This document shows, one piece after another, positions 28,317 to 46,327 of a stretch of 64,000 nucleotides of DNA (the stretch's first letter is position 1; every line of letters starts with the position of its first letter). The notes under the pieces are model-generated. The model had not been told where the DNA came from. It made no database searches and saw only the letters and a list, made by a program, of their open reading frames with translations. A program made the translations under genes and the position numbers. The stretch is from Pseudoxanthomonas sp. PXM01 (GTDB taxonomy: Bacteria > Pseudomonadota > Gammaproteobacteria > Xanthomonadales > Xanthomonadaceae). Location: positions 248,001-312,000 of the forward strand of contig NZ_JACVAJ010000003.1 in NCBI RefSeq assembly GCF_014851815.1, written 5' to 3'.

Positions 28317-29573
28317 TCAGCTGTCGTCGCCGTCACGTGCATCGGGCGACTGGCGCGCGACGATGCTGGTCGCGGTCAGGTCGCCGGTGACATTGCCGGT
28401 GGTGGCGAACACGTCGGGGATGGTGTCCACCGCAAGCAAAAGGCCGAGTGGTTCGATCGGCAGCCCCATGGACTGGGTCACCGGCATGACCGTCGCCATG
28501 AAGCTCACCTGGCCTGGCAGGCCGATGGAGCCAAGGCTGATCACCACGGCCAGCGCAGCTCCGGCAGCCAACGTCACCGCGTTGACTTCGATACCGTAGG
28601 CCCAGGCGACGAAGCATGCCGCGACGATGTACTGGATTGGGCTGGTGATGCGGAACAACGTCACCGCCATCGGCAGTACCAGCGCAGCGACTGCTCGCGG
28701 ATGTCCGAGGCGGAAGCGGGCGCTCTCCACCATCGCAGGCAACGAGGCCAGCGAAGACTGCGTGCTGGCGGCCACGACCTGCGCAGGTAGGATCGCCTTG
28801 GCGAAAGCGAGCGGGGATTGGCGCGCGAACACCGCTACCAGCACATAACAGATGAGGGTCGCGCCGAGGTACATCCCGCACTGCAGCGCGATGTATCCCG
28901 CCAACGCGCCGATCACGCCGATGCCCGCCTGCGCACAGACGGCGAGCACCAGCGCAAACACGCCGATCGGTGCGGCCAGCAGCATCCAGCGCACGATCAC
29001 AATCATGGTGTCCGCAATGCCGTGGCAGAAGCCGATGATCTGCGTGCGACGGTCTTCCTGCACGCGCGTAAGCGCGAATCCGAAGAACAAGGCGAACACG
29101 ACCACCGGCAACATCGCGCCCTGCGCGGCCGCCATGATGGCGTTGCTCGGCACGATCGAGCCGATCCAGTCGGCAAGTCCGGGCGTGACGACCTCACCGG
29201 ACGTCGGCAGCGTGCCGTGCAGCGTGGCCGTCAGTGCTTCGCTGGGCGGCACCATCGCCAACACCAGCGGCGCGACGATGGCTGCATAGGCGGCGAACAG
29301 CGACAGCAGAGAGATGAATACCACCATCGCCCGACGCGCGACGCGGCCGGACGCGGCGGCATCGCTGGCGGTCGCGACGCCGAGGATCACCAGCGCCAGT
29401 ACCAGCGGCACGACCGTCATCTGCAGGCCGCTGAGCCAGAGTTTGCCGATCGGCTGGGCGATGGCGACTGCGGTGGCCGCACTCGTCGGCGACCAGTGGG
29501 CCAGTGCCAGGCCGACGATTGCGCCGGCAGCGAGACCGAGAAGAACGCGCGCGGTGGCGCCCGGCCACCTCAT
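28317..29573 (-). CDS. Dicarboxylate/amino acid:cation symporter (DAACS family)
   Basis: The 418-residue membrane protein belongs to the DctA/GltP/SstT-like DAACS family, which import glutamate, aspartate, dicarboxylates or related compounds with Na+ or H+. It has about eight helices, the serine-rich re-entrant stretch AASTQSSLASLPAM and, later, GSIGLPGQVSFMATVMPVTQSMG and LLLAVDTIPDVFATTGNVTGD, which hold the substrate-binding Asp and Asn residues. The ATG at 29573 overlaps the stop of the YkuD gene (ATGA), tying it to the peptidoglycan-peptide genes upstream. Glutamate or a Glu-containing dipeptide is a plausible substrate. Confidence 0.88.
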   Translation of the reverse strand: MRWPGATARVLLGLAAGAIVGLALAHWSPTSAATAVAIAQPIGKLWLSGLQMTVVPLVLALVILGVATASDAAASGRVARRAMVVFISLLSLFAAYAAIVAPLVLAMVPPSEALTATLHGTLPTSGEVVTPGLADWIGSIVPSNAIMAAAQGAMLPVVVFALFFGFALTRVQEDRRTQIIGFCHGIADTMIVIVRWMLLAAPIGVFALVLAVCAQAGIGVIGALAGYIALQCGMYLGATLICYVLVAVFARQSPLAFAKAILPAQVVAASTQSSLASLPAMVESARFRLGHPRAVAALVLPMAVTLFRITSPIQYIVAACFVAWAYGIEVNAVTLAAGAALAVVISLGSIGLPGQVSFMATVMPVTQSMGLPIEPLGLLLAVDTIPDVFATTGNVTGDLTATSIVARQSPDARDGDDS

Positions 29574-30367
29574 GGCGCCGTCTCCGGCAACTGCCATTCG
29601 CGGGTGAGGCGGGCGTACTCGGCACGGGGCAGCAGCACGAAGACCGGGCGCGCGTCGGGACGCAGCCAGGCCAGTACGTCGTCCATCGTCCCCGCCGCCA
29701 TCGCGGTGCAACCCGCCGTCGGCTCGCCCGGGGTGCGCCACAGGTGCGCGAAGATGCAACTGCCGGCGCGCGGTGTTGCATTCGGGTTGTGGCCGATCAC
29801 CAGGCCTTCCCGATAACGGACATCGCCATTGTTATGCAGGTCCAGTCGCATGGGTTCTGTCGATCCCTTCGCGGCTTCGTTGCCTTCGTCGCGGGTATCG
29901 ATGATGCGGTTGTACAGCGGCGAATCCGGCACATCGATGCAGTAGCTGGTCGCCTGCATCGCGCGGTAGGGCATGGTGGTGTCGGCCTTGTCGGCGTAGC
30001 CGAAGGCTTCGCCGAGCGTGAACACGCCGGCGGGCGCACGACCGTCGCCCTCCTGCTTCTGCGGTCCTTGCAGCTGCGTGGGATGCAAACCCAGACCCCA
30101 CGCCGCACCGTTGCGTCCGACCGAGATCGGTGCCACGTCAGCAACCGTCTGCCAGCGGCCGTCGCGCATCTCGAAACGTTGCAGCGTGCCGGTGGTGGCA
30201 TCCCAGCCGTCGGTTATCACCAGGACCAGCTGGCGTGCATCGCGCCAGGCTTGCGGGGCCGGGGTAGGTTCCCCGGCGGTGGCACGGGCGTCGGTGCCGG
30301 TGCCGAGCAGCAGCGTGGCCAGGACAAGCGAACGGAAGGAGTGGCGCGGCAACGACGGTATGGGCAT
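29570..30367 (-). CDS. L,D-transpeptidase (YkuD-domain) family protein
   Basis: The 265-residue protein has an N-terminal signal-like stretch (RSLVLATLLLGTGTDARA) and then a YkuD-type domain. The active site is GSCIFAHLWRTPGEPTAGC, with the catalytic His in IFAH and Cys in TAGCTAM. The usual SHGCxR is changed to TAGCTA, as in the subgroup related to YafK/ErfK-like carboxypeptidases. It acts on the third residue of stem peptides as a transpeptidase or L,D-carboxypeptidase. It overlaps the RpiR gene stop and the symporter start by ATGA junctions, so the three are translated as a unit. Confidence 0.8.
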   Translation of the reverse strand: MPIPSLPRHSFRSLVLATLLLGTGTDARATAGEPTPAPQAWRDARQLVLVITDGWDATTGTLQRFEMRDGRWQTVADVAPISVGRNGAAWGLGLHPTQLQGPQKQEGDGRAPAGVFTLGEAFGYADKADTTMPYRAMQATSYCIDVPDSPLYNRIIDTRDEGNEAAKGSTEPMRLDLHNNGDVRYREGLVIGHNPNATPRAGSCIFAHLWRTPGEPTAGCTAMAAGTMDDVLAWLRPDARPVFVLLPRAEYARLTREWQLPETAP

Positions 30368-31224
30368 CACGACTCCAGCAGATGATGGATGCGTTCGAGA
30401 TTGATGGCGAGCTGGCGGTTGCGGTCCGGATTGGTCTGGCATAGCAGCACGAACACGAAATCCAGCAACGATTGCAGCGATGAGCGGTACAGCAGCTGTT
30501 CCACATGCGGCGCGGGGTCGTGTGCCGAGATGACCAACGCCGCATCCGCATGTGCACGCAGCGGGTTGGCGGTGTGGCGGGTGATGGAAATGACCTTGCC
30601 TTCGCAAGCCTGGAACTGGCGGCTTACCTGCGACAGCTCGGGCAGCTTGCCGAACTCGGAGAACATCAGCAGCACATCGCCGGGGCGTGCTGCCGACAGG
30701 TTGGCCATCATCAGGATGGGGTCGGCGTGGTGCACCGTCAGCAGGCCCAGCAGCGACAGCCGCATGGCGAACTCGCGCGCGAACAGGCCGTCGTCGCCCA
30801 GCCCGCAGACGAACACCTTGTCCGCCTTGTCGATCATCTGGACGATGGGCTCGATGTGCGTGCGCGGATTGAGGCTGCGGGTTTCCTCCTCGGCGGCCAT
30901 CTTGCTGCGGCGCAGGCTGTCCTGCAGTTGCCCATAGGCATCCGCGGCATCGTCCTTAGCCGCGTCCGGCGGCAACACCTGGCCGTTGCCGTTGCGGGCG
31001 ACGGCTTCGCCGATGGTGTACTTGAGGTCCGGGTACCCCTTGAAGCCGAACTTCTGCGCGAACTTCACCACGCTCGACTGGCTGATGCCCAGCGCGCTGG
31101 CGAGCTGCTGCGAGGAGTAGTCGCGCAGCAAGTGCGCGTTGTCGAGGATGAAGTCGGCGATGCGGCGTTCGATGGCCGACATCTGATCGCGTTCGGAGCG
31201 GATCTTCACCAGGGGCGTTGTCAT
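30367..31224 (-). CDS. MurR/RpiR-family transcriptional regulator
   Basis: The 285-residue regulator has an RpiR helix-turn-helix domain (about 1-80; IADFILDNAHLLRDYSSQQLASALGISQSSVVKFAQKFGFKGYPDLK) and a SIS domain (about 130-270). In the SIS domain the usual phosphate-binding G-x-G-x-S and S-x-S-G-x-T read GLGDDG and SEFGKL, so the sugar-phosphate pocket appears lost. That fits a locus without sugar-phosphate genes and suggests a peptide or amino-acid ligand. It sits between the epimerase and YkuD genes and probably controls the 33.9 and 39.5 kb promoters. Confidence 0.88.
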   Translation of the reverse strand: MTTPLVKIRSERDQMSAIERRIADFILDNAHLLRDYSSQQLASALGISQSSVVKFAQKFGFKGYPDLKYTIGEAVARNGNGQVLPPDAAKDDAADAYGQLQDSLRRSKMAAEEETRSLNPRTHIEPIVQMIDKADKVFVCGLGDDGLFAREFAMRLSLLGLLTVHHADPILMMANLSAARPGDVLLMFSEFGKLPELSQVSRQFQACEGKVISITRHTANPLRAHADAALVISAHDPAPHVEQLLYRSSLQSLLDFVFVLLCQTNPDRNRQLAINLERIHHLLES

Positions 31225-31278
31225 GGCATGAGTGTGATGGCGGTGGACGGTGCTGACAACGGGCCATCGCCACCGGGC

Positions 31279-32376
31279 TCAGCCCGGCAGCAGTTCCAGG
31301 CCACGGATCTCGCGGATACCCAGGCCGGGCGCCTCGGTAATCGTGATTTCCGACTCGTTGAAGATCACGCCGCCTTCGACCGGGTTGAACTGTCCCAGCG
31401 ACGGACCGTCCAGGTCCACCTTGGTAATGACGTTGGCCTTCGCCGCAGCGACATGCACGGCGGCCGCCACGCTGATGCTGGTCTCGATCATGCAGCCGAT
31501 CATGCACTCCACGCCGTAGAGGGAAGCGATGTCGGCGATGCGGATGGCGTTGGATATGCCGCCGGTCTTCATCAGCTTGATGTTGATGATGTCGGCGGCG
31601 CGCATCTTGATCAGGTCGATCACCTCGGTCGGGCCGAACACGCTCTCGTCCGCCATCACCGGCGTGTGCACGCGGTCGGTGACGTACTTCAGGCCGTCCA
31701 GGTCGCGCGCCTTGACCGGTTGCTCCAGCAGTTCCAGTACGACGCCCGCGTCTTCCAGATGCTGCATGGCGAACACCGCCTGCTTGGCGGTCCAGCCCTG
31801 GTTGGCGTCCAGACGCAGCAGCGCACGGCCCTCGACGGCGGAATAGATGGCCTTCACCCGTTCGATATCCAGGCCGATGTCCTTGCCGACCTTGATCTTC
31901 AATGACTCGAAGCCGCGCTCTACCGCGCTGATCGAGTCGGCCACCATCTTGTCGATGTAGTCCACGCTGATGGTGATGTCGGTGGTGATGACGGGGTCGC
32001 CGCCGCCCAGCATCTTGTACAGCGGCGCGTCGTAGAGCTGGGCCCACAGGTCGTAGACCGCGATCTCGACCGCCGCCTTGGCGCTGGTGTTGCGCTCGAG
32101 CGCCGTCTGGATGAGGTCGGTGATGCGGTTGAGGTTGGCGACGTCCTGGCCGATCAGCCGGGGCCGGATGAACTTGCCGATGGCCTCGACGATCGAGCCG
32201 TGCGTGTCGCCGGTGATGACGGCCGTGGCCGGCGCCTCGCCGTAGCCGACGTGGCCGGTGTCGGTCTTCACGATCACCACGATGTCTTCCACCGTGTCGA
32301 CGGTGCGCAGCGCGGTCTTGAACGGTGTCTTCAGCGGCACGCGCAGCATGCCGAAGGTGATGTCGGTGATCTTCAT
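31279..32376 (-). CDS. L-Ala-D/L-Glu (dipeptide) epimerase
   Basis: The 365-residue enolase-superfamily enzyme epimerises L-Ala-D-Glu, released from murein peptides, to L-Ala-L-Glu. Catalytic residues are all present: the KxK pair Lys160/Lys162 (SLKIKVG), metal ligands Asp190 (LRLDANQG), Glu218 (LELLEQP) and Asp243 (VMADESV), and the opposite base Lys267 (INIKLMK). The spacing is nearly that of Bacillus YkfB. No signal peptide is seen, so the dipeptide must reach the cytoplasm. The ATG at 32376 overlaps the stop of the NlpC/P60 gene, its natural upstream partner in the pathway. Confidence 0.92.
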   Translation of the reverse strand: MKITDITFGMLRVPLKTPFKTALRTVDTVEDIVVIVKTDTGHVGYGEAPATAVITGDTHGSIVEAIGKFIRPRLIGQDVANLNRITDLIQTALERNTSAKAAVEIAVYDLWAQLYDAPLYKMLGGGDPVITTDITISVDYIDKMVADSISAVERGFESLKIKVGKDIGLDIERVKAIYSAVEGRALLRLDANQGWTAKQAVFAMQHLEDAGVVLELLEQPVKARDLDGLKYVTDRVHTPVMADESVFGPTEVIDLIKMRAADIINIKLMKTGGISNAIRIADIASLYGVECMIGCMIETSISVAAAVHVAAAKANVITKVDLDGPSLGQFNPVEGGVIFNESEITITEAPGLGIREIRGLELLPG

Positions 32377-33839
32377 GGAGCCCCTTGGGGACGGATGCGC
32401 TGGATGGCGGTGATGCGGTCGACGGTGGACTGCTCGCTGTTGAACAGCAAGGGTTCCAGCGGGGTGACGGCTACCGAATTGAGGGTGGTGCGGACGACCT
32501 TGCCGTCGGCGCCGCGGTAGGTGATGCCGGTGGTGTCGTGGATGGTGTAGGTGGTGCCGTTGTCGTGGCCGATCACCATCATCACGTGGCCCGGGATGTA
32601 GACCAGGTCGCCGACCTGCAACGTGCGCAGCACGGCCAGGCGCTTCTCGTGGCTGTCGCCGGCGTCGAAGCCGATGCGTTCCAGTGCCGGGCTGACGGCC
32701 TGCGCGCTGGTGTTGCGCGGCAGGACGATGCCCATGCTCTGGTAGACCTCCGACACGAAGCCGCTGCAATCGCGGCTGTCGTAGCCGTGGCCCCAGCCGT
32801 AGCGCTCGCCGAGGAACTTGAAGCTCTGGCGCAGCAGGTTGGCCGCGGTGTACGGCAGGTAATCCGGTGCGACGTCGGCGGTGCGCGGCAGCAAGGCCGG
32901 CAGCAGGGCGAGCGCGCCGTCGGCACGGCGCACCGGCAGCTGGATGACGTGCGAGGTATAGGGGTGTTGCCCGTTCACTGCCTTGTCGGCCGGCCAGTCG
33001 GCCAGCACCGGGACCCGGACACCCATGTCCAGCTGCAGCGCCGAGATGCCGGCCTCCTCCGGGTTGTAGACGGTACGCACGGTGGCGCCGGTCACCACCA
33101 GGGCGGACGTGCCCGCGCCGTAGCCGAGCACCTTGTCGCGGGCACCTTCGCCGACGAACCGCTTTTCTATCCACGCGGCGTACCGCGAGCTCACCACGAA
33201 GTACCAGTCGCCGTCGGCGCTGGTGTGCGCGATGACCACCGGCGAACCCGGGAACAGCGCGCTTTCCTGGAAGCGGTCGATGTCCGTCTCGCCCTGGCTG
33301 CTGAAAACGCGCTGGCGGGTCGGAAAGGTACGGAGGTCGGCGCGGTGCACCACCAGCCCGTAGCGTGCGGGGGCGGTGGCGGCGACCGCGTCCACGGCGG
33401 CATTGGCGATGATGGCAGCCAGCTGTGGCTTCGTGATCTCAACGCCCCGCTCGTCGTACAGCGTACGGGTCGGAGGAGCGGACAGCGGGTCCAGCCAGCC
33501 GCGAACCTGCGCGCGCGTGAGGTCCGGGGGCAGGTTCTGCAACACATGGAGATGCCGGTCGCTCTGCCACATGCGGTCGTTCTGCGCCGCCACGCCGGTG
33601 CCGTTGAGCAGCGGCCGGTCCGGCTCGGCGAGACGCCGGACCCAGTCGTCGGCCTGGAGGTGCCGGTCCTGCACGCCGATGACGGCATGGGCGGGAACAG
33701 GCAGCGGGTCGCGCGCCAGAGCGGGCATGCCGGCGGCAAGCAGGCTCAGCAGGGCGAGGGCTTTCAGGCGCCCCCCCGGCCCGGTGCGTCCGCCCGTGAG
33801 TCGCCGGGCCAAAGGCCGATACGGCATCGATGCGTTCAT
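32373..33839 (-). CDS. NlpC/P60 endopeptidase with SH3-like domains
   Basis: The 488-residue precursor has an N-terminal signal (LKALALLSLLAAGMPALA), two SH3-like regions in the middle (YGLVVHRADLRTFPT; SALVVTGATVRTVYN) and a C-terminal NlpC/P60 domain. Its catalytic Cys lies near residue 357 in SRDCSGFVSEVYQSMG, with His in IPGHVMMVIG and a third polar residue in YTIHDTTG. The layout matches YkfC/Spr-type gamma-D-glutamyl-diamino-acid endopeptidases that free L-Ala-D-Glu. The ATG at 33839 has a GGGAG ribosome site. It overlaps the epimerase gene by ATGA, which strongly supports joint action. Confidence 0.9.
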   Translation of the reverse strand: MNASMPYRPLARRLTGGRTGPGGRLKALALLSLLAAGMPALARDPLPVPAHAVIGVQDRHLQADDWVRRLAEPDRPLLNGTGVAAQNDRMWQSDRHLHVLQNLPPDLTRAQVRGWLDPLSAPPTRTLYDERGVEITKPQLAAIIANAAVDAVAATAPARYGLVVHRADLRTFPTRQRVFSSQGETDIDRFQESALFPGSPVVIAHTSADGDWYFVVSSRYAAWIEKRFVGEGARDKVLGYGAGTSALVVTGATVRTVYNPEEAGISALQLDMGVRVPVLADWPADKAVNGQHPYTSHVIQLPVRRADGALALLPALLPRTADVAPDYLPYTAANLLRQSFKFLGERYGWGHGYDSRDCSGFVSEVYQSMGIVLPRNTSAQAVSPALERIGFDAGDSHEKRLAVLRTLQVGDLVYIPGHVMMVIGHDNGTTYTIHDTTGITYRGADGKVVRTTLNSVAVTPLEPLLFNSEQSTVDRITAIQRIRPQGAP

Positions 33840-33902
33840 CCACTCCCCTCTGTCAGACCCATCCACCCGGCAACCATGACGCCATGCCGGGGACGGTTTC
33901 CA

Positions 33903-33920
33903 CAAGAATATTTATTTCTT
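33903..33920. promoter_or_regulatory. Upstream AT-rich box, 33.9 kb promoter
   Basis: CAAGAATATTTATTTCTT shares its first eight bases with the box at 33934, exactly 31 bp (three turns) downstream. It is also close to the element at 39482 (12 of 18). It lies in the divergent gap between the NlpC/P60 and transglutaminase genes and is probably the second half of a regulator-binding pair. Confidence 0.6.
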
Positions 33921-33933
33921 CCGATATAAAAAT

Positions 33934-33951
33934 CAAGAATAAATTATTGAC
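33934..33951. promoter_or_regulatory. Shared operator-like box overlapping the -35 element, 33.9 kb promoter
   Basis: CAAGAATAAATTATTGAC matches the box at 39513 in 17 of 18 positions. The core AATAAATTATT is palindromic except for its central base. Its right end merges into a -35 hexamer TTGACC (33947-33952), and 17 bp later comes TTACAC (33970-33975), a fair -10. The RpiR-type regulator encoded at 30367-31224 is the obvious candidate to bind it. Confidence 0.7.
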
Positions 33952-33975
33952 CCTTGTGTTCATGCCGTGTTACAC
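33947..33975 (+). promoter_or_regulatory. Sigma-70-type promoter of the transglutaminase-TonB receptor unit
   Basis: TTGACC, 17 bp, TTACAC gives a good -35 and a moderate -10. Transcription would begin near 33982, ahead of the start codon at 34032. The -35 is embedded in the shared AT-rich box. Confidence 0.5.
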
Positions 33976-34031
33976 AGCCGTGACCAGTCGGCGTGGGGAT
34001 GTACGACGTGGATGCCAGCAGGAGCCAGCAC

Positions 34032-35522
34032 GTGGTGACAGAACGCGGCAGGCGCACCCGGCGCCGGCTGGCCGCGTGGCTGTCGCTGTGCGGGTGGCCG
34101 ATGGTACTCCCGGTGACGGGTCTGGCCGAGGCCGGTGACCCGCTCTCTGCCATCGTCGCCGACATCGACCGTGGACGCTTCCAGAGCGCGGAAGCCGCCA
34201 TCGCCCGTGCGCTGGCCGCGACCGATGCGGCAGCCGCAGACCGGGAAGCCTTGTTGTTCCAGCGCGAACGCATGCGCCGCATCCGCCTAGATTTCACCCT
34301 CGACGCTGACGCCGTGCGCGAACGCCTCCGCACGCACGTGCCGGACCTGGGCGAGGACGAGTTCCAGCGCTGGGACAGCGCCGGGCTGATCGAGCGGCTG
34401 GATATCGACGGTGAGCCGCGCTACTTCAGCCGGTCGGTGTCGAACCTGTTCCGCCTGAGTCCGGAGGCCGCCGCGCGCCGTGCGCCGCCGGTGCGGGCCT
34501 TCGTGCAAGGCCCTTACGAGGCGCTGCACCGCCATCATCGCGACGTGATGCAGGTCGCCAAAGCCACCGGCGCGACCAGCGTGCTGCCGCGTCGCGTGCG
34601 CATCACCCACACCCTCAGCGTGAAACCCGACGCCGTGCCGGCGGGGGAGACCGTGCGCGCCTGGCTGCCGTATCCGCGTGCCATCGCGGGCCAGCAGGAG
34701 GCCATCGCACTGGTGGCCAGCCAGCCGGGCCGTCCGCAGGTGGCGCCGGAACGCGCGCTGCAGCGCACCGCCTACTTCGAGCAGCCGGCGGTCGCCGGCG
34801 CACCGACGACCTTCTCGGTGACGTACGAGGTGACGATGCACGCGCGCCGCGTGGCGATGGATCCCGACCGTGTAGTGCCCGCGACGGCCACGCCGGAACT
34901 CGCTGCCTTCCTCGCCGAGCGCGCCCCGCATGTCGTCTTCAGCGACGACCTGCGCCGCTTCAGCGAGCAGATCGTGGGCGACGAGAAGAACCCGTACCGC
35001 ATCGCCCAGAAACTGTTTGCCGCCGTGGACCGCATTCCGTGGGCCGGTGCGCGCGAGTACTCCACGATCAGCAACATCAGCGACCACGCCTTCCGCGCCG
35101 GCCATGCCGACTGCGGACAGCAGACGCTGCTGCTGATCACGCTGCTGCGCATGAACGGCATTCCCGCGCGCTGGCAGTCGGGCTGGGCCTACTCGGAGGA
35201 CGTGGAAGGCCACGACACCATGCACGACTGGGGTGCGCTGTACCTCGCACCTTACGGCTGGGTGCCGATGGACGTGACCACCGGCCAGTTGGCATCGGAC
35301 GATCCGGCGCTGCGCTGGTTCTACCTCGGTGGGCTGGATGCGTATCGCGTGGCGTTCAACGACGACTACTCGCGCGAGTTCATCCCCGCCAAGCAGCACG
35401 TGCGCTCAGAAACCGTGGACCTGCAGCGCGGCGAAGTCGAGTGGAAGGGCGGCAACCTCTACTTCGACCAATGGGACTACACGTTCGAATGGACCATGCT
35501 GCCGCGGGATGGGCGCGGCTGA
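34032..35522 (+). CDS. Transglutaminase-like protein, exported
   Basis: The 496-residue product has a signal-like N-terminus (RRLAAWLSLCGWPMVLPVTGLAEA), a helical region, and a transglutaminase-like domain. Its catalytic triad is visible as Cys near residue 361 (HADCGQQTLLLITLLRMNGIPAR), His (HDTMHDWGALYLAPYGW) and Asp (VPMDVTTG). Bacterial members are usually peptidases or amidases rather than cross-linkers. I take the GTG at 34032 because AGGAG precedes it by seven bases; an ATG at 33999 is possible. It is 46 bp ahead of the TonB receptor, so it may process the receptor's ligand in the periplasm. Confidence 0.8.
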   Translation: MVTERGRRTRRRLAAWLSLCGWPMVLPVTGLAEAGDPLSAIVADIDRGRFQSAEAAIARALAATDAAAADREALLFQRERMRRIRLDFTLDADAVRERLRTHVPDLGEDEFQRWDSAGLIERLDIDGEPRYFSRSVSNLFRLSPEAAARRAPPVRAFVQGPYEALHRHHRDVMQVAKATGATSVLPRRVRITHTLSVKPDAVPAGETVRAWLPYPRAIAGQQEAIALVASQPGRPQVAPERALQRTAYFEQPAVAGAPTTFSVTYEVTMHARRVAMDPDRVVPATATPELAAFLAERAPHVVFSDDLRRFSEQIVGDEKNPYRIAQKLFAAVDRIPWAGAREYSTISNISDHAFRAGHADCGQQTLLLITLLRMNGIPARWQSGWAYSEDVEGHDTMHDWGALYLAPYGWVPMDVTTGQLASDDPALRWFYLGGLDAYRVAFNDDYSREFIPAKQHVRSETVDLQRGEVEWKGGNLYFDQWDYTFEWTMLPRDGRG

Positions 35523-35568
35523 CACCACCACACGTTTCTACCAACATCTTTAGCAGGAGAGAGCGGGG

Positions 35569-38718: not shown

Positions 38719-39477
38719 ATGACGATGCTTTTCCGCCCGCTGCGTCGCTCCGCCATCCTGCTGACGCTGGTCATGTTGCTGGGCGCCTGCGCCCACTCCG
38801 CACCACGCAATCCGCTCGCCACCTGGGTGCCGTCGAAGAACTTCGATGAGCGCCGGCCGGTGGTCATCGTGCTGCACTACACCGAACAGGATTCGGTGGA
38901 GCAGTCGCTGGATACCCTTCGCAGCCGCAACAGCGGCGGACGCGTCAGCTCACACTATCTCCTGGGCAAGGACGGCAAGATCTACCAGTTGGTCAGCGAC
39001 ACGCAGCGCGCCTGGCACGCGGGCGCCGGAAGCTGGGGCGCGATCACCGATGTCAACAACGCGTCCATCGGCATCGAGATCGACAACGACGGCAAGAGTC
39101 CGTTTCCCGATGCGCAGATCGACAGCCTGATCGTGCTGCTGCGCGACCTGACGCAGCGTCTGCGTATTCCACCGACACAGATCATCGGCCATTCGGATCT
39201 GGCACCGACCCGCAAGATCGATCCGGGCCCGCTGTTCCCCTGGAAGCGTCTGGCGGACGCCGGCTTCGGCGTGTGGCCGGCGGAGGGTGCCGGCGATCCG
39301 CCGCCCGGATTCGATCCGTGGCTGGCGCTGCAGGCGATCGGCTACTCCACCGACAATCGCCCCGATACGGTGCGTGCGTTCCACCATCGCTTCCGCGGCA
39401 TGGAAGGGTCGGAACTGGATGCCGAAGACCTGCGCATCCTGCATGCGTTGACCGCTCCACCTGCCACGTCACCGTGA
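38719..39477 (+). CDS. Lipoprotein N-acetylmuramoyl-L-alanine amidase (AmiD/AmpD family)
   Basis: The 252-residue precursor has a lipoprotein signal (ILLTLVMLLGAC, lipobox LGAC). It then carries an Amidase_2 domain: zinc ligand His in VIVLHYTEQ, second His in IIGHSDLAPTRKIDPG, whose Asp also belongs to the site, and SSHYLLGKDGKIYQLVSDTQRAWHAG. A C-terminal peptidoglycan-binding-like tail follows (PWLALQAIGY ... VRAFHHRF). It cleaves the MurNAc-L-Ala bond, freeing stem peptides, probably at the outer membrane as AmiD does. An ATG two codons in is possible. It ends just before the second promoter region. Confidence 0.9.
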   Translation: MTMLFRPLRRSAILLTLVMLLGACAHSAPRNPLATWVPSKNFDERRPVVIVLHYTEQDSVEQSLDTLRSRNSGGRVSSHYLLGKDGKIYQLVSDTQRAWHAGAGSWGAITDVNNASIGIEIDNDGKSPFPDAQIDSLIVLLRDLTQRLRIPPTQIIGHSDLAPTRKIDPGPLFPWKRLADAGFGVWPAEGAGDPPPGFDPWLALQAIGYSTDNRPDTVRAFHHRFRGMEGSELDAEDLRILHALTAPPATSP

Positions 39478-39481
39478 CGGG

Positions 39482-39499: not shown

Positions 39500-39512
39500 T
39501 TTTTTTGCACCA

Positions 39513-39530
39513 CAAGAATAATTTATTGAC
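39513..39530. promoter_or_regulatory. Shared operator-like box overlapping the -35 element, 39.5 kb promoter
   Basis: CAAGAATAATTTATTGAC is the second copy of the box at 33934 (17 of 18; the one change falls in the palindrome centre). It again runs into the -35 hexamer TTGACT (39526-39531), with TAAACC 17 bp later. Identical placement at both receptor promoters argues for common control. Confidence 0.7.
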
Positions 39531-39554
39531 TGCGGTCAAGCTGCATGCTAAACC
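39526..39554 (+). promoter_or_regulatory. Sigma-70-type promoter of the second TonB receptor unit
   Basis: TTGACT, 17 bp, TAAACC (39549-39554) gives a good -35 and a weak -10. The start near 39561 would leave a leader of about 245 nt before the receptor ATG at 39807. Confidence 0.45.
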
Positions 39555-39806
39555 GCCATCACAGGGGTTTTACCGGCAGGGGTGCCGGTGCAGTCCGTTT
39601 CACCAGGCAATCTGTGGTGCGCATCCGGGATGGATGCGCGGGAAGGCGCGAATGGGGAGCCATGCGGGCCGGGGATCGATCAGTCGCTGCGCCGCATGCA
39701 TCGCATGGGCGAGGCATTGGCCCCGGAACGACGCGTCGAGCGCATCGCAGTCCATCACACCGGTCGCGCGCACCGCGCGTTCCAGACATTCAGAGGAGAG
39801 ATCTGC

Positions 39807-42695
39807 ATGCCCGCTCGACGCCTTTCGCTTAGGCCCACCCACCTCGCTTCCGCCATCCTGCTGGGCTTGGCCGTTCCGGGCGTCGTGCTCGCACAGGATG
39901 CGGCACCTGCCAGTGGTGCCCGCACGCTCGATACGGTGACCGTCACCGGTTCGCGCATCAAGCGCACCGATGTGGAAGCCGCATTGCCCGTCACCATCAT
40001 CCAGAAAGCGGAGATCGAGGCACAGGGCATCACGTCGGCGGAACAGCTGCTGCAGTTCCTCAACGTCGCCAGCAACGCCTCCGACAGCTTGGCGTCGAAT
40101 GCCGGCATCGCGCCGGCAGACCTGCGTGGCAACAACGGTGTGTCCGGCGCCAACCTGCGTGGCCAGGGTGCCGACGCAACGCTGGTTCTGTTGAACGGCC
40201 GCCGCGTCGCCACCCATGGCCTGCGTGGGCAGGCTGTGGACCTCAATTCGATTCCGTTCGCCGCCATCGACCGCGTCGAAGTGCTGCGCGACGGCGCCTC
40301 GGCGGTCTACGGCACCGACGCCATCGGCGGCGTGATCAACTTCATCACCCGCAGCGACTACCAGGGCATCACGGTCAACGCGGGTTTCGACGTTACCCAG
40401 GATGGCGGCGGCAACATCTACACCTACAGTGTGCTCGGCGGCATGGGCGACATCGACTCGGACGGCTGGAACGTCTGGGGCACGATGAACTATCGCGAGA
40501 ACGAGATCCTTCTGGGCAGCGACCGCGACTACGCGAACACGTTCCAGCTCGACCGGGGCCTGTCGCCCGATACCCGCGGCACGCCGTTCGCCACGGTATC
40601 CAACATCGCCGGCGGCATCATCACCGGTACGCTGGCCGATCCCGCCGGTGGCGGCGGGCAGGCGCTGATCAACATCCTCAACCTGCCGGGTGCGGCGGGC
40701 TGCGAGGCCGGCGGCGACATGATGGGCCCGTACGCGTACCGGCTGTGGGGCGTCGCCAACTCGAAGTACGCCTGTGCGTGGGACTATCCGGCGGCGCAGG
40801 TGATGCAGCAGCCGCAGGAAAGCCTGCAGGCGCTGGGCCGTGCCACGTTCAAGCTCGGCGAGAACCATCGTTTCTACGCCGAAGCCATGGCCTCGCGTTC
40901 CGAGTCCAACCGTCAGTTCGAAGCGCAGCAGATCACCTCGAGTGCCTCGACGGCCGCTTCGGCGCTGGGGCCGAGCACCTGGTACCCGTACCTGCCCGGT
41001 AACGCGCAGTCGCTGGCGACCTACAACATGGTCTTCAACGCACTGTCGTCGTACTTCGGCAGTGGCAACCTGGTGTACGGCAATCCGATTCCGTATCGCT
41101 GGCGCTGCGAAGTCTGCGGCCCGCGCCAGATCGAGACGACCACCAAGGCGTATCGCTTCCTGGTCGGCGTCGACGGCACGATCGGCAGCTGGGACTACGA
41201 CGTCGGCCTGTCGCGCGCATCCAGCGAAGCCGAATCCGTGCTGGGCAGCGGCTACTACTTCACGCCGGGCTTCAAGGCGGCGCTGGGCAGCGGGCTGCTG
41301 AATCCTTTCCTGATGCCGGGCCAGCAGCATGATCCCGCGGGGGTCGCGATGCTGCAGGCGGCCTCGGCGGCGGGCGTGCGCCTGTATGGCGGCGAGTCGA
41401 CCGTCACCACGCTGGATGCCGCGTTCTCCGGCGGTCTCGGCTTCAACCTGTGGGGCGGCGAAGTGATGGCGGCGGTCGGCGTGGATCTGCGTCGCGAAGA
41501 GTTCGAGTTCGGCTCGACAAAGGACGGCATCGTCCTGGACAACAGCTACATTTTCGGTGCGCCATTCGACGCCACCAATAATCTGCCGAAGGTGTCGCGC
41601 GATGTGAAGGCGGTCTACGCCGAGGCCTTCCTGCCGATCGTGGACAGCCTGGAAGTGAGCCTGGCGGTACGCCGCGACGATTACGACGGCTTCGGCAGCA
41701 CGATCAACCCGAAGTTCTCGTTCAAGTGGCAGCCGATCGAATCGCTGGCCTTCCGCGGTGCGATCAGTGACGGCTTCAAGGTGCCGGAATTCACCAAGCT
41801 GTTCAGTGGCGTGACGTCCAGCCCGTACACCGGCTTCGACCTGGTCGATCCGGCCAGCTGCCCCGGCGGTGTCGCCAATCCGGCGATCCCGGGCTGCACG
41901 GCGATCCAGCCGGACATCCTGACCGGCGGCAAGGCCGACCTGAAACCCGAAACGTCCGACCAGAAGAGCTTCGGCGTGGTGTTCGCGCCTAACGAACACT
42001 TCAATGTCAGCCTGGACTGGTGGGAGATCGAGCGTACCAACACCATCCGCGTGCCCAACCAGGCCACCCTGGTCGCCAACTACGACCTGTTCGCCGCCAA
42101 CTGGATCCGGGACAGCAGCGGCCAGGTGGTCGGCATCGATCGCCGCTTCATCAACTCCGGCGGCACCCTGATCAGCGGCATCGAGCTGGATGCCAACGTG
42201 ATTGGCGACCTTGCCGGCGGCACCTTCCGCGTCAACCTCAACGGCAGCTACATCGACAGCTTCCAGGAAAAGGCGCTGGAGAGCACGCCGTACGGTCCGA
42301 ACCAGGTCGGCAAGTACATCCGCTATTACAACCTGCCGCTGAAATGGAAGCACACGCTGAGTTTCGCGTGGGCCAAGGGCGACTGGTCGCACACGCTCAC
42401 GCAGATCTACCGCGATGGTTACAAGGACGAAGTCCCGGTCAGCGTGGTCAACAACAGCTACATTCCGGAAAACTGGAATCCGGACGTCGACGACTACATC
42501 ACCTACAACTACAGCCTGGGCTGGACGGGGCTGGAGAACGCCAAGTTCACCTTCATCGTGCGTAACCTGCTCAATGAGGATCCGCCGTTCACCGCCCACT
42601 ACAACGACTTCGCTTCAGGTGCCGCATGGGAACCGCGTGTCGCCGATCCGCGTGGCCGTTCGTTCGCGCTGATGGTCGAGTACAAGTTCGACTGA
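39807..42695 (+). CDS. TonB-dependent receptor
   Basis: The 962-residue precursor starts with a signal peptide (LASAILLGLAVPGVVLA-Q). Its TonB box/plug region begins TLDTVTVTGSRIKRTDVEAALPV, and the plug contains NLRGQGADATLVLLNGRRVA and VEVLRDGASAVYGTDAIGGVINF. The barrel ends FALMVEYKFD with the terminal aromatic motif. It lacks the carboxypeptidase-like domain of the first receptor. The ATG at 39807 follows GAGGAGAG. It heads a unit with a serine hydrolase, a D-Ala-D-Ala dipeptidase and a D-amino-acid dehydrogenase, which suggests a D-Ala-containing peptide as ligand; this is an inference from context. Confidence 0.92.
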   Translation: MPARRLSLRPTHLASAILLGLAVPGVVLAQDAAPASGARTLDTVTVTGSRIKRTDVEAALPVTIIQKAEIEAQGITSAEQLLQFLNVASNASDSLASNAGIAPADLRGNNGVSGANLRGQGADATLVLLNGRRVATHGLRGQAVDLNSIPFAAIDRVEVLRDGASAVYGTDAIGGVINFITRSDYQGITVNAGFDVTQDGGGNIYTYSVLGGMGDIDSDGWNVWGTMNYRENEILLGSDRDYANTFQLDRGLSPDTRGTPFATVSNIAGGIITGTLADPAGGGGQALINILNLPGAAGCEAGGDMMGPYAYRLWGVANSKYACAWDYPAAQVMQQPQESLQALGRATFKLGENHRFYAEAMASRSESNRQFEAQQITSSASTAASALGPSTWYPYLPGNAQSLATYNMVFNALSSYFGSGNLVYGNPIPYRWRCEVCGPRQIETTTKAYRFLVGVDGTIGSWDYDVGLSRASSEAESVLGSGYYFTPGFKAALGSGLLNPFLMPGQQHDPAGVAMLQAASAAGVRLYGGESTVTTLDAAFSGGLGFNLWGGEVMAAVGVDLRREEFEFGSTKDGIVLDNSYIFGAPFDATNNLPKVSRDVKAVYAEAFLPIVDSLEVSLAVRRDDYDGFGSTINPKFSFKWQPIESLAFRGAISDGFKVPEFTKLFSGVTSSPYTGFDLVDPASCPGGVANPAIPGCTAIQPDILTGGKADLKPETSDQKSFGVVFAPNEHFNVSLDWWEIERTNTIRVPNQATLVANYDLFAANWIRDSSGQVVGIDRRFINSGGTLISGIELDANVIGDLAGGTFRVNLNGSYIDSFQEKALESTPYGPNQVGKYIRYYNLPLKWKHTLSFAWAKGDWSHTLTQIYRDGYKDEVPVSVVNNSYIPENWNPDVDDYITYNYSLGWTGLENAKFTFIVRNLLNEDPPFTAHYNDFASGAAWEPRVADPRGRSFALMVEYKFD

Positions 42696-42729
42696 CCTGA
42701 TCCGTCGTCGACCTGCAGCAAGCCTCGGA

Positions 42730-42754
42730 CCGTCGCCGGCAATGTCGGCGACGG
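42730..42754 (+). terminator. Hairpin between the second receptor and the serine hydrolase
   Basis: CCGTCGCCG and CGGCGACGG form a 9-bp stem with a seven-base loop, 35 bp after the receptor stop. Without a T-run it is more likely a partial terminator or an mRNA-stabilising hairpin that lowers expression of the downstream enzymes. Confidence 0.45.
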
Positions 42755-42808
42755 CTCGTCTGCGTGCAGGGCAGCGCGCTCGGAATCTCCGGAAACGTGA
42801 GCCACGCC

Positions 42809-44353
42809 ATGAAGCATTTCCTTGCCTGCCTGGCGCTGTTGGCGCCCATCGCGCACGCCGAGCCCGGCAATGCCGCCATCGACGCCGCCGTGGAACAGAC
42901 ATTCGAGCGCTACGGCCTGCCGGGCCTGGCGGTCGGCGTCATCCGCGATGGCGAGGTCGCGTACACGCGCGCGCTGGGTGAGCTGCGGGCCGGCAGCGAT
43001 GAGAGGATCGACAACGACACGCTGTTCAAGATCGCCTCCAACAGCAAGGCGATGACGGCCGGCGTGCTGGCGCGACTGGTCGACGCCGGCAAGCTCAAGT
43101 GGGACGATCCGGTCACGAAGTACCTGCCGCAGTTCCGCATGCATGATCCGTGGGTCACGCAGCAGATGCAGGTACGCGATCTGCTGATCCACAACAGTGG
43201 TCTGGGGCTGGGCGCGGGCGACCTGATGCTGTGGCCGGAACCGAACCGGTTCACCCGGAACGACATCATCGCCGGCCTGCAACACCTCAAGCCGACCCAC
43301 AGCTTCCGTGCTGCGTACGCCTACGACAACCTGCTGTATGTCGTGGCGGGCGAAGTCGCGGCCGTGGCAGGGGGAGCGTCCTACGAAGAACTGGTGAAGC
43401 GCGAACTGTTCGCGCCGCTCGGGCTGTCGCGCTGCCAGGTCGGCGAATGGAACCGCGCGGCCGTGGGCAACGTGGCGCAGCCGCACATGCGCACGTCGCA
43501 AGGCAATCGTGCCATCCGCGAAGATGATGAGGTGGTTCCCAACGTCACGTCCATGGCGGCCGGCGGCATCCGCTGCAGCCTCGACGACATGCTGACGTGG
43601 ATGCGCATGTGGCTGTCGCCCGACGCGACGCCCGCGTGGCTGTCGCCAGCGCAGCGCAAGGCGGTGTGGACCGCGCACATGCCGATGCCGGTCAGCGCGC
43701 GGATGCGTGCCTGGGACAACAGCCACTTCTCCGCGTATGGGTATGGCTGGCGGTTGTCGGATGTCGATGGCGTGTGGAAAGTCGCGCATACCGGCACGCT
43801 GGCGGGCATGTACTCGTCGGTGATCCTGTTGCCGGACCAGCGCACCGGCATCGTCATTCTGATCAACGGCGAAGGCGAGGCCGCCCGTACGGTGCTGGGG
43901 CAGGTGTTGACCAAACAGTTCACTGCACCTTCGACTTCGCCGACCGTCGCGCATTACGCAGGACTGCTGGAACAGGAGCGTACCGGCGAGCGGGCTGCCA
44001 AGCCGAAGGCGGACACGCGCCATCGCGCGATCGCCAGCGCGCGGTCGCTGGCGGCATGGACCGGACACTACCGCGACCCCTGGTTCGGCGACGTCGCGTT
44101 GTGTCCCGATGGCGATCGCGTGCGCTTCGTGGCCGCACGCTCGCCGATGCTGTCGGGCACCGTCATGCGCGTGGACGAACGCTGGCTGGTGGACTGGGAC
44201 GACGACAGCGTGGATGCGGAGCCGTGGCTGCACTTCGCCACGCCGCCTGCAGGTGGCGATGCCCGGCTTACACTGTCGCATGTCGATCCGGACGCGGACT
44301 TCAGCTACGACTATGCCGATCTCGATTTCCACCGCACGCAGGCGTGCCGCTGA
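42809..44353 (+). CDS. Class-C beta-lactamase-type serine hydrolase, exported
   Basis: The 514-residue precursor has a signal peptide ending at AHA-E (residue 17). A penicillin-binding-fold domain follows, with SxxK at Ser77-Asn-Ser-Lys80, a Tyr-x-Asn motif in YAYDNLLY, and HTG in KVAHTGTLAG. A C-terminal DUF3471-like domain (TGHYRDPWFGDVALCPDGDRVRF) is attached. Such proteins include D,D-peptidases, D-aminopeptidases and esterases. The context of D-Ala enzymes favours a D-aminopeptidase or carboxypeptidase acting on peptides. It is followed one base later by the dipeptidase gene. Confidence 0.87.
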   Translation: MKHFLACLALLAPIAHAEPGNAAIDAAVEQTFERYGLPGLAVGVIRDGEVAYTRALGELRAGSDERIDNDTLFKIASNSKAMTAGVLARLVDAGKLKWDDPVTKYLPQFRMHDPWVTQQMQVRDLLIHNSGLGLGAGDLMLWPEPNRFTRNDIIAGLQHLKPTHSFRAAYAYDNLLYVVAGEVAAVAGGASYEELVKRELFAPLGLSRCQVGEWNRAAVGNVAQPHMRTSQGNRAIREDDEVVPNVTSMAAGGIRCSLDDMLTWMRMWLSPDATPAWLSPAQRKAVWTAHMPMPVSARMRAWDNSHFSAYGYGWRLSDVDGVWKVAHTGTLAGMYSSVILLPDQRTGIVILINGEGEAARTVLGQVLTKQFTAPSTSPTVAHYAGLLEQERTGERAAKPKADTRHRAIASARSLAAWTGHYRDPWFGDVALCPDGDRVRFVAARSPMLSGTVMRVDERWLVDWDDDSVDAEPWLHFATPPAGGDARLTLSHVDPDADFSYDYADLDFHRTQACR

Positions 44354-44354
44354 C

Positions 44355-45062
44355 GTGCGCGGTGCGTGGCTGCTGCTGATCTGTACCTTGCCGTGGCTGG
44401 GCGCCTGTGCGTCCTCGCTGGGTGTGCAGGTCTCGCCTGCAAAGGAAGCAGCCGACGTGGATCTGGTCGATGCCGCCACGGTCGTTCCCGGCCTGCAGCA
44501 GGACATCCGCTACGCAGGCGGCAACAACTTCGTCGGCACGCCCGTCACCGGCTATGAAGCGCCCAAGTGCCTGCTGCTGGCGCCGGTCGCGCAAGCGCTG
44601 GTGCGGGTGCAGCAGGACGTCGAGCGGGAAGGCCTGTCGCTGAAGGTGTTCGACTGCTATCGCCCCGTGCGCGCGGTCCAGCACTTCGTCCGCTGGGCGC
44701 GCGATCCGGGCGACCAGCGCACGAAGGCCGCGTACTACCCGAACCTGGAGAAGGCGAGCCTGCTCGACGGCTACATCGCCGAGACCTCCGGGCACAGTCG
44801 TGGCGCCACGCTCGACCTGACCCTGGTCCGATGCGAACGCGATGCCTGCGTTGAACTCGACATGGGCACGCCGTTCGACTTCTTCGATCCGCGCGCCAAC
44901 ACTGCGGACCCGTCCATCACCGACGAACAGCGCCGCAACCGCGAGCGGCTGGTGCAGGCGATGGCGCGTCACGGCTTCCAGAACTACGCGATGGAGTGGT
45001 GGCACTTCACCTTCCGTCCCGAACCCACCCCACGCACCGCCTACGACGTCCCGATCCAATGA
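44355..45062 (+). CDS. D-alanyl-D-alanine dipeptidase (VanX/DdpX type), lipoprotein
   Basis: The 235-residue precursor is an M15D zinc peptidase that splits D-Ala-D-Ala. Zinc ligands His147 and Asp154 lie in SGHSRGATLD, the general base Glu and last His in EWWHFTF, and the stabilising Arg in DCYRPVRA. A GTG at 44355, one base after the upstream stop, gives a neat lipoprotein signal (GAWLLLICTLPWLGAC); an ATG at 44313 inside the previous gene is an alternative. With no van genes nearby, the role is more likely catabolic, like DdpX in E. coli, than vancomycin resistance. It overlaps the next gene by ATGA. Confidence 0.9.
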   Translation: MRGAWLLLICTLPWLGACASSLGVQVSPAKEAADVDLVDAATVVPGLQQDIRYAGGNNFVGTPVTGYEAPKCLLLAPVAQALVRVQQDVEREGLSLKVFDCYRPVRAVQHFVRWARDPGDQRTKAAYYPNLEKASLLDGYIAETSGHSRGATLDLTLVRCERDACVELDMGTPFDFFDPRANTADPSITDEQRRNRERLVQAMARHGFQNYAMEWWHFTFRPEPTPRTAYDVPIQ

Positions 45063-46327
45063 GTCCTTCCCCTTCTTCTTCTTCCTCGCCGCAGACCGCC
45101 GATGTCGCGGTGATCGGCAGCGGTATCGTCGGCTTGTCGACGGCCCATCACCTGATGGATCGCGGGCTGTCCTGCCTGCTGATCGACGCCAAGGGGCCGG
45201 CGGGCGAGACCTCGTTCGGCAATGCCGGCTCCATCTCGGTCGGCAACGTGATGCCGCAATCCACGCCGGGCATCGTCACCAAGGCGTTGCGCATGCTGGC
45301 CAACCCGCTGGCGCCGCTGAAGCTGGATTGGGCCGTCAGCCCGTCCTATGCGCGCTGGCTACTGCAGTTCCTCAACCAGGGCCGGCTGCAGCATGTGGTG
45401 CCGATCATCGATGCCCTCAGTGCGATCAACACCGCCTCGCGCGCTGCCTGGCTGGATCTGGGCGAGCGGATCGGTGCGGGCGAACTGATCGGCCACACGG
45501 GCTACCTGCACGTCTACAGCGAGGACGCCACGTTCGAGAAGGGCGAGTGGGAACGTGGACTGATGCGCGAGCGCCGGGTCGCGTTCGACGTGCTCGATGC
45601 TGCCCAGCTGCGTGACCTCGAACCCAACATCGGCGCGGGCTTCCAGCGCGCGGTGTTCCAGCGTGATTCCCTGGCGATGCGCGATCCGGGCGAGTTCTGC
45701 CGGCGCCTGTTCGATGACCTGCGCGCGCGCGGGGCGGCATCGCTGACCGCCAGTGCGTCGGCGATCGCCAGGCACGGCGACGGCTACCGCGTCGATACCG
45801 ATCACGGCCCCGTGCATGCCGGCCGCGTGGTCGTGGCCGCGGGTGCGTGGAGCAACGCGCTGCTGCGTCCGTTCGGCTTGAAGATCCCGGTGATTCCCGC
45901 GCGCGGCTACCACCTGATGTACCCGCAGGCGTCAGCGGTGGTGCAGCGTCCCACGCTGTGGGCCGAGCGCTACATGGTGGTGTCGCCGATGCAGGCCGGC
46001 ATCCGCATGACCAGCATCAAGGAACTGACCGCGCTGGGCCGCGATCCGCACTACGCGCTGATCCATCGCCTCGATCCGGAAGCGCGCAAGCTGTTCCCGG
46101 GGATTACCGGCGAACCGGTATCGGAATGGGCAGGCAACCGCCCGTGCACGCCAGACTCGCTGCCCATCATCGACCGCGTGCCGGGCGAAGGAATTTTCGT
46201 CGCCACCGGCCACGGCCACCTTGGCCTGACACAGGGCCCGGTCACCGGCAGGCTGGTCGACCAGATGATGGCGGGCGATCGGCCGGAGATTCCGCTGGCG
46301 CCCTATGGGCTGGCGCGATTCGGGTAA
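45059..46327 (+). CDS. D-amino acid dehydrogenase (DadA-like FAD oxidoreductase)
   Basis: The 422-residue enzyme has the FAD-binding start VAVIGSGIVGLSTAHHL, the GETSFGNAGSIS loop typical of DadA, and the C-terminal GNRPCTPDSLPIID and ATGHGHLGLTQGP motifs. DadA-type enzymes oxidise D-alanine and other D-amino acids to 2-oxo acids, feeding electrons to the respiratory chain. Here it would consume the D-Ala made by the coupled VanX-type dipeptidase. Its ATG overlaps that gene's stop (ATGA). It ends the peptidoglycan-peptide region and is followed by a pair of inverted repeats. Confidence 0.9.
   Translation: MSPSPSSSSSPQTADVAVIGSGIVGLSTAHHLMDRGLSCLLIDAKGPAGETSFGNAGSISVGNVMPQSTPGIVTKALRMLANPLAPLKLDWAVSPSYARWLLQFLNQGRLQHVVPIIDALSAINTASRAAWLDLGERIGAGELIGHTGYLHVYSEDATFEKGEWERGLMRERRVAFDVLDAAQLRDLEPNIGAGFQRAVFQRDSLAMRDPGEFCRRLFDDLRARGAASLTASASAIARHGDGYRVDTDHGPVHAGRVVVAAGAWSNALLRPFGLKIPVIPARGYHLMYPQASAVVQRPTLWAERYMVVSPMQAGIRMTSIKELTALGRDPHYALIHRLDPEARKLFPGITGEPVSEWAGNRPCTPDSLPIIDRVPGEGIFVATGHGHLGLTQGPVTGRLVDQMMAGDRPEIPLAPYGLARFG

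Follow-up and report, generated by a model that had tools for sequence, protein, structure and literature searches.

We suggest that a group of twelve genes in Pseudoxanthomonas sp. PXM01, at positions 28317 to 46327 of a 64,000-nucleotide stretch of contig NZ_JACVAJ010000003.1 (hereafter the window), serves to scavenge peptidoglycan stem peptides by TonB-dependent uptake under the control of an RpiR regulator, a reading to which we give a probability of roughly 0.72. An earlier note, made from the letters of the window, had proposed TonB-dependent uptake and catabolism of muropeptides; co-occurrence of the genes across genomes and a conserved promoter site now support that proposal, with wall peptides as the predicted ligand. 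The evidence supports a locus that is real, conserved and apparently co-regulated, and whose gene content follows a peptidoglycan-peptide logic. It consists of the identities of the genes, their catalytic residues, a nested co-occurrence, the exchange of receptors between related loci, and a conserved site whose presence is tied to that of the RpiR gene.

Layout and distribution of the locus

The genes form two arms that diverge from a common promoter region (33840–34031). From the centre outwards, the five genes of the minus arm encode the NlpC/P60, epimerase, RpiR, YkuD and SDF proteins, and the seven of the plus arm encode a transglutaminase-like protein (TGL), the receptor TB1, an amidase, the receptor TB2, and class-C, VanX-like and DadA-like enzymes. 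The features are as follows.

28317–29573, minus strand: SDF (GltP/DctA-like) symporter (PF00375, E = 5.5e-76)
29570–30367, minus strand: YkuD-domain protein (PF03734, 22.2 bits against a cut-off of 23.4; signal peptide by eye)
30367–31224, minus strand: RpiR-type regulator (HTH_6, PF01418; SIS, PF01380; no signal peptide)
31279–32376, minus strand: L-Ala-D/L-Glu (dipeptide) epimerase (PF13378, PF02746; no signal peptide)
32373–33839, minus strand: NlpC/P60 endopeptidase with SH3_6 domain (PF12913, PF00877; signal peptide by eye)
33904–33920, plus strand: upstream dyad AAGAATATTTATTTCTT, proposed second operator (read in the sequence)
33937–33951, plus strand: operator-like site GAATAAATTATTGAC, overlapping the −35 box of the receptor arm (sequence pattern)
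34032–35522, plus strand: transglutaminase-like cysteine hydrolase, TGL (PF01841; signal peptide by eye; start codon uncertain, 33993–34032)
35569–38583, plus strand: TB1, Oar-type TonB-dependent receptor (PF25183, PF13620; Plug 35 bits above cut-off; signal peptide by eye)
38719–39477, plus strand: Amidase_2 lipoprotein, AmpDh2/AmiD-like (PF01510, E = 3.5e-36)
39516–39530, plus strand: second copy of the site, GAATAATTTATTGAC, upstream of TB2, one mismatch (whole-genome pattern scan)
39807–42695, plus strand: TB2, second TonB-dependent receptor (PF07715, PF00593; signal peptide by eye)
42809–44353, plus strand: class-C beta-lactamase-fold serine hydrolase (PF00144; signal peptide by eye)
44355–45062, plus strand: VanX-like M15 D-Ala-D-Ala dipeptidase, lipoprotein-like in this genome (PF01427)
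45059–46327, plus strand: DadA-like D-amino acid dehydrogenase (PF01266)

The twelve genes listed in the earlier note are borne out: for 11 of the 12, the family reading is backed by a score above one or more Pfam cut-offs, and the YkuD protein, scored on an over-long frame, falls just under its own. The grouping also stands, but not as one contiguous run; a single operon is ruled out by the divergence of the arms, and TB2 has a separate promoter site at 39516. Of the ATGA overlaps said to mark several junctions we find three, namely NlpC/epimerase (32373–32376), YkuD/SDF (29570–29573) and VanX/DadA (45059–45062), plus a TGATG around 30367 where the RpiR and YkuD genes meet. Directly to the left of the locus lies a DUF4096 transposase-type frame (27558–28115).

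The distribution of these genes was followed in 149 genomes of the family, with thresholds of E ≤ 1e-30 for the epimerase, 1e-60 for NlpC and TGL, 1e-100 for TB1 and 1e-150 for TB2. The epimerase was found in 90 genomes, NlpC in 98, TGL in 69, TB1 in 70 and TB2 in 18. For TB1, five candidates were scored per genome and 92 genomes gave a match at the threshold, of which the 70 above a gap in the scores were kept (lowest counted orthologue, 792 bits; best paralogue, 578 bits); a fragment in genome G114 (566 bits, 66%) was left uncounted. NlpC is present in 90/90 genomes with the epimerase and 8/59 without it (Fisher p = 8.5e-32), TB1 in 70/90 and 0/59 (p = 1.5e-24) and TGL in 69/90 and 0/59 (p = 7.2e-24), in tests that treat the genomes as independent and leave their relatedness uncorrected. 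An epimerase is found no more than 10 kb from TB1 in 67 of the 70 genomes that carry the receptor. Of the exceptions, two come from fragmented assemblies, in which TB1 is on a separate contig, and in one (genome G003) TB1 has moved. By the earlier note, the system reading would fail if receptors or peptidases were missing at random from homologous loci; this is not what we find, given that neither TB1 nor TGL occurs in any of the 59 epimerase-less genomes. In the seven genomes examined (L215–L221) of the eight with NlpC and no epimerase, NlpC adjoins YkuD and/or a carrier, VanX or DUF819, and the peptide-cutting part can therefore exist alone.

Gene order was compared in 170 loci, 90 of them from the family genomes and 80 the best loci of a second scan. 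Removal of loci shorter than 12 kb, epimerases shorter than 340 residues and identical epimerases left 143, which are mutually related and hence not 143 independent cases. The typical order, with losses and insertions, is carrier-YkuD-RpiR-epimerase-NlpC divergent from TGL-TB1-class C-VanX, and it is seen in Pseudoxanthomonas, Stenotrophomonas, Lysobacter, Luteimonas, Rhodanobacter, Dyella and others. A TonB receptor is present at 127 of the 143 epimerase loci (TB1 at 103, TB2 at 9, both at 7, a third type, TB3, at 6 and another at 2), against about 0.24 Plug matches per 20 kb genome-wide in PXM01 (50 in 4.18 Mb). The claim that the grouping is real is upheld by this comparison, and chance clustering in a genome with 50 receptors is ruled out by the co-occurrence together with the site described below.

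In a sample of 369 gammaproteobacterial genomes ten gave a match at E ≤ 1e-50, four of them of the same family and six at 33–36% identity. The second locus scan found loci of other families at 72–77% that are absent from this sample, and for that reason we dropped the sample as a gauge of spread in other Gammaproteobacteria.

The receptor position is kept while its occupant is exchanged, as a shared function would give. On the epimerase tree, which has two long unreliable branches (L097 and L098, the latter a split epimerase frame read in one frame), the receptor labels, including 'none', need 19 changes, and well-supported branches force at least three changes for TB2 alone and at least three for TB3. 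At five loci of the Rheinheimera/Arsukibacterium/Alishewanella type, which belong to other families (among them Chromatiaceae and Alteromonadaceae), TB2 (50–62% identity) adjoins the epimerase and NlpC, with RpiR nearby. P. kalamensis (L102) and P. spadix (L142) have TB2 and the amidase, and neither TB1 nor TGL. TB3, a label given by eye, occupies six loci, and the two proteins scanned (L088, L172) pass the Plug and barrel cut-offs. The receptors of Lacimicrobium (L160) and R. aquimaris (L168) share the CarboxypepD_reg and PF25183 domains with TB1.

Exchange also affects the enzymes and carriers. The inner-membrane carrier is an SDF protein in 76/143 loci and an amino acid permease, which replaces it, in 39/143. 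A decarboxylase stands between TB1 and the class-C gene in 16 of the 90 family-genome loci; it scores 475.4 bits with the curated lysA model, whose cut-off is 297.9, and is matched in 39/143 loci. A membrane protein of the unassigned family DUF819, as a rule adjoining NlpC (e.g. L056, L107), occurs in 36/143 loci and may transport peptides or amino acids that stem from the wall. Finally, five loci of one genus (L046, L073, L088, L090, L091) have a type IV secretion effector and a lipoprotein near the amidase; the one effector scanned has XVIPCD and peptidoglycan-binding domains, and its place in the locus may link killing and wall use.

The promoter site and the RpiR regulator

The RpiR regulator has both expected domains, HTH_6 and SIS, and its gene is tied to a conserved site in the common promoter region. 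Single eight-letter pieces of GAATAAATTATTGAC recur in as many as 68 of the 72 promoter regions compared (82 less near-identical ones), where about one to two would be expected after shuffling in 20-base blocks. With at most two mismatches, 128 copies are found in the 2.83 Mb of the 143 loci, distributed over 123 loci; none lies inside a matched gene, and the reversed pattern has no match in the same 2.83 Mb. The site ends in the TTGAC of the −35 box, and all 109 strict-form sites are followed by a −10-like box, TG[TC]TA[ACG]A, at 15 nt (91) or 16 nt (18).

Across 141 loci the RpiR gene and the site are both present in 119 and both absent in 16, with the gene alone in four and the site alone in two; one of these two, L080, comes from a genome (G057) with two loci, and RpiR is encoded at the other. 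L060 and L063, in which the contig breaks off next to the epimerase, are not in this table; both carry the site. In six Rheinheimera-type loci, GAATAAATTATTC, a full palindrome except for its central base, precedes the RpiR match by 71–94 bp, where a regulator that controls its own gene would be expected to have its site. The site could also be read as an AT-rich promoter element that operates without a regulator, but its link to the RpiR gene would then go unexplained.

In PXM01 itself the pattern (at most two mismatches) has three matches, at the receptor-arm promoter, at the TB2 promoter and at C5:134178, and the reversed control has no match in this genome. The third site, with two mismatches, precedes a small frame without evident link (by eye) and is probably a chance match. 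A wide regulon was dropped as a candidate, as the genome holds three sites of which the third is apparently unrelated. TB2 has a long leader (39531–39806), with about 230 nt or more separating its promoter site from its start codon. Dyads resembling AAGAATATTTATTTCTT were seen by eye, and left uncounted, upstream of the main site in relatives.

The site also accompanies receptors that have left the locus: in genome G003 (L214) a perfect site stands about 98 bp upstream of the match to the moved TB1, and in genome G063 (L203) a two-mismatch site stands about 300 bp upstream of the match to the moved TB2. These cases bear on the possibility that the receptors import an unrelated ligand, such as a siderophore or a glycan, and merely adjoin the peptidases. 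TonB receptors are abundant in this genome, as its 50 Plug matches attest, and TB2 is found elsewhere without the locus, as such an explanation would allow. Nevertheless, TB1 is absent from all 59 epimerase-less genomes and retains the site where it has moved, and no carbohydrate-active or iron gene is among the twelve, so that we consider an unrelated ligand very unlikely.

Receptors, enzymes and the nature of the substrate

The two receptors differ in their attachment to the locus. The expectation that both travel with the epimerase, NlpC and VanX set held for TB1 and failed for TB2, which is scattered (13/90 genomes with the epimerase, 5/59 without) and shares only seven of the 143 loci with TB1; equal dedication of the two is thereby ruled out. 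TB1 is the core receptor, and TB2, the amidase and DadA are accessory. TB2 passes the Plug and beta-barrel Pfam cut-offs, and TB1 scores 100.5 bits for PF25183 and 26.8 for PF00593 (cut-off 27). Within its own genome the best other match to TB1 is 31% identical over the N-terminal third. The predicted barrel of TB1 (predicted local distance difference test, pLDDT, 83) has FusA, PirA, PqqU and others as nearest solved folds, at 12–13% identity, a comparison of a model that confirms a TonB receptor and gives no indication of the ligand. That this ligand would be wall peptides is a strong inference from family and context. TB1 is 76% and 64% identical to its counterparts in loci L099 and L009, although the epimerases are 99% identical; the N-terminal part is more conserved, stretches of the barrel fall to 35–43%, and the receptors thus diverge much faster than the neighbouring genes. 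TB2 identities to the same two loci are unreliable, as one copy is truncated where the locus ends and the other matches only from residue 198.

The enzymes retain the residues on which their families depend for catalysis. In the epimerase, the KxK/Lys, Asp/Glu/Asp and Arg24 plus DxD residues, which we take to serve in acid-base chemistry, metal binding and substrate binding, respectively, are kept in 169–170 of 170 rows. It is 99% identical to the epimerase of Pseudoxanthomonas japonensis, and its nearest solved structure is the L-Ala-D/L-Glu epimerase 1JPM/1TKK (E = 4.9e-102), the Bacillus subtilis enzyme YkfB. The NlpC protein has the YkfC-type make-up of SH3_6 and NlpC/P60 domains, with Cys/His/His kept in 166/166 aligned rows; its nearest PDB entry is 3M1U, a putative gamma-D-glutamyl-L-diamino acid endopeptidase (E = 2.3e-25), and we propose it as a cutter of gamma-D-Glu-diaminopimelate. 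The VanX-like protein has the SxHxxGxAxD and ExxH residues of VanX D-Ala-D-Ala dipeptidases (His147, Asp154, Glu214 and His217 in 92/92 rows; Arg52 in 88/92). A lipobox was dropped as a general feature of this protein, as a crude pattern finds it in 26 of 82 copies. In the amidase, nearest to AmpDh2 among solved structures, the zinc ligands are kept in 25/25 rows and a lipobox-like motif in 21/21 copies.

For the remaining proteins the proposed steps are broader. The class-C hydrolase keeps its SxxK, YxN and His residues in 107/107 rows and is a candidate D,D-peptidase. His208 and Cys220 of the YkuD protein are invariant in 125/125 aligned rows, a search of the PDB gave no relative at E ≤ 0.01, and an L,D-carboxypeptidase-like step is proposed for it. 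TGL keeps Cys361, His398 and Asp414 in 121/121 rows; its predicted structure (pLDDT 89.5) is nearest to 3ISR, a putative cysteine protease, and then to TglA. Its identification as a known enzyme was dropped, as the target-normalised template modelling score to 3ISR is 0.69 and the pseudomurein endoisopeptidases PeiP and PeiW match weakly (E 0.01–0.2). The SDF symporter would be the inner-membrane importer of a product. The substrates of all these enzymes are those suggested by family and context.

Several observations weigh against a dedicated wall-peptide system. At 16 of the 143 loci no TonB receptor is recognised; of these, L135 is a short contig, the genome of L077 has TB1 at another position, and several loci have the most divergent epimerases. 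Two of three Xanthomonas loci (L173, L174; the third, L133, has TB1) and four others (L083, L085, L087, L089) are without a receptor at the locus, and within the 143-locus set such Xanthomonas-type loci are also without RpiR and the site. By genome, TB2 has no significant association with the epimerase (p = 0.3), five of its carriers being epimerase-less. The site is absent, at up to three mismatches, from ten TB2 loci away from an epimerase (L204–L213; five in epimerase-bearing genomes), and five of the six TB3 loci are without it. The fold of TB1 was uninformative as to ligand class, its distant nearest structures being iron and other receptors. No muramyl-sugar gene is among the genes of the locus, and RpiR proteins usually sense sugar phosphates. 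Lastly, the curated NCBIfam equivalog cut-offs are not reached by the epimerase (NF041118, 259.3 against 500 bits; NF011708, 116.1 against 343; models taken from their names to be of the Thermotoga-type and E. coli-type enzymes), by the VanX-like protein (189.6 against 320), or by RpiR for MurR, the sensor of N-acetylmuramic acid 6-phosphate (98.3 against 408). The best NCBIfam match of the DadA-like protein, D-amino acid dehydrogenase subfamily NF001933, scores 204.1 bits against 383, and the AmpH and AmpD matches are likewise beneath their cut-offs. All six are therefore family readings, to which the curated models assign no exact substrate.

These curated scores leave room for another peptide containing D-Glu or D-Ala (e.g. 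poly-gamma-glutamate or other dipeptides) as the substrate in place of peptidoglycan, as does the diversity of the dipeptide epimerase family. The Arg24 and DxD pair that aligns with 1JPM/1TKK is conserved, however, and the amidase, NlpC/P60, VanX-like protein and diaminopimelate decarboxylase fit peptidoglycan better, and we consider such a substrate most improbable.

The receptor-less loci, for their part, bear on a role in recycling of the cell's own wall, in which the locus would recapture stem peptides shed in growth and the receptors would retrieve leakage. Several of the enzymes match recycling enzymes, and the Xanthomonas-type loci keep enzymes without a receptor. On the other hand, AmpG and Mpl, the canonical inward route, are encoded elsewhere in the genome (both over their cut-offs) and not in the locus; a TonB receptor is retained at the great majority of loci; and 59 of the 149 family genomes have no epimerase at the threshold used. 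Own-wall recycling is for these reasons unlikely. The six receptor-less loci named above (L083, L085, L087, L089, L173, L174) retain the permease, YkuD, epimerase, NlpC, amidase and VanX.

A proposed pathway and its relation to known systems

From the genes and their arrangement we infer the ligand and its transport, the order of the cuts, the binding and repression by RpiR, the inducer and the source of the fragments. In the scavenging pathway that we favour, wall fragments from lysed cells would bind TB1 or TB2, and the TonB machinery would drive their passage across the outer membrane. Once in the periplasm, they would lose their sugar to the amidase, and the class-C hydrolase, VanX-like protein, YkuD protein and possibly TGL would trim D-Ala and cross-links. 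NlpC/P60 would then cut D-Glu from diaminopimelate to leave L-Ala-D-Glu, diaminopimelate and D-Ala, and a carrier in the inner membrane (SDF in PXM01, an amino acid permease in other loci) would import products. Inside the cell, the epimerase would convert L-Ala-D-Glu to L-Ala-L-Glu, the DadA-like enzyme would oxidise D-Ala and, in many relatives, the decarboxylase would turn diaminopimelate into lysine. RpiR may bind the AT-rich palindrome over the −35 box and, as long as no inducer is present, repress TB2 and the receptor arm, and probably the minus arm as well; a muramyl sugar as inducer would fit the sugar-phosphate sensing usual in this family. Because AmpG and Mpl lie elsewhere, the locus would be an addition to own-wall recycling and not its canonical route.

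A close parallel is the murein-peptide operon ykfABCD of B. subtilis, in which the epimerase YkfB stands beside YkfC, an NlpC/P60 gamma-D-Glu-diamino-acid endopeptidase, just as the two genes are side by side here. B. subtilis, however, has no outer membrane and its operon no TonB receptor, whereas the present locus has an NlpC with a signal peptide and adds receptors, amidase, VanX-like protein and RpiR. In E. coli, recycling proceeds through AmpG, Mpl and MppA-Opp with the epimerase YcjG. The chemistry on L-Ala-D-Glu is the same, but that system recycles the cell's own wall and has no outer-membrane receptor.

In organisation, the locus resembles the CUT loci (loci for carbohydrate utilisation with a TonB receptor) of Xanthomonas, in which a TonB receptor, degrading enzymes, an inner-membrane carrier and a regulator are linked, and it has each of these components. 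CUT loci serve plant sugar, whereas a bacterial wall peptide is proposed here; the terms peptidoglycan, murein, dipeptid- and epimerase do not occur in the main text of the 2007 paper by Blanvillain (PMC1790865). The TonB receptor clusters for N-acetylglucosamine (GlcNAc) in Caulobacter likewise tie a receptor to the reuse of a wall component, but they take the free sugar, unlike the peptide uptake proposed here, and 'dipeptide' and 'L-Ala-D-Glu' do not occur in the main text of that paper (PMC13046382). A dipeptide epimerase has been listed among bean-associated genes of Xanthomonas (PMC6090828). The earlier note knew of no established system of TonB receptors dedicated to muropeptides, and we agree: among the titles and beginnings of abstracts that our search terms brought up in one library, we found no description of such a receptor, or of an outer-membrane route for the wall peptides of other cells.

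Finally, we note what the locus could mean for the bacteria that carry it. Peptidoglycan is among the most abundant bacterial polymers, and the proposed pathway, if true, would add a new class of substrate for TonB receptors. As the locus supplies genes, a regulator and an operator-like site, uptake of wall peptides across the outer membrane becomes directly testable; because Stenotrophomonas loci carry the same gene set, the locus would also bear on muropeptide signalling. We lean somewhat towards a broader picture, in which the xanthomonad group and some aquatic bacteria would have a dedicated class of TonB receptors for stem peptides, encoded in a modular locus with a single RpiR switch, where receptor, carrier and end enzyme vary around a constant core of epimerase and NlpC; in one lineage, whose loci have peptidoglycan-binding type IV secretion effectors, the killing of neighbours and the use of their walls would be physically linked.

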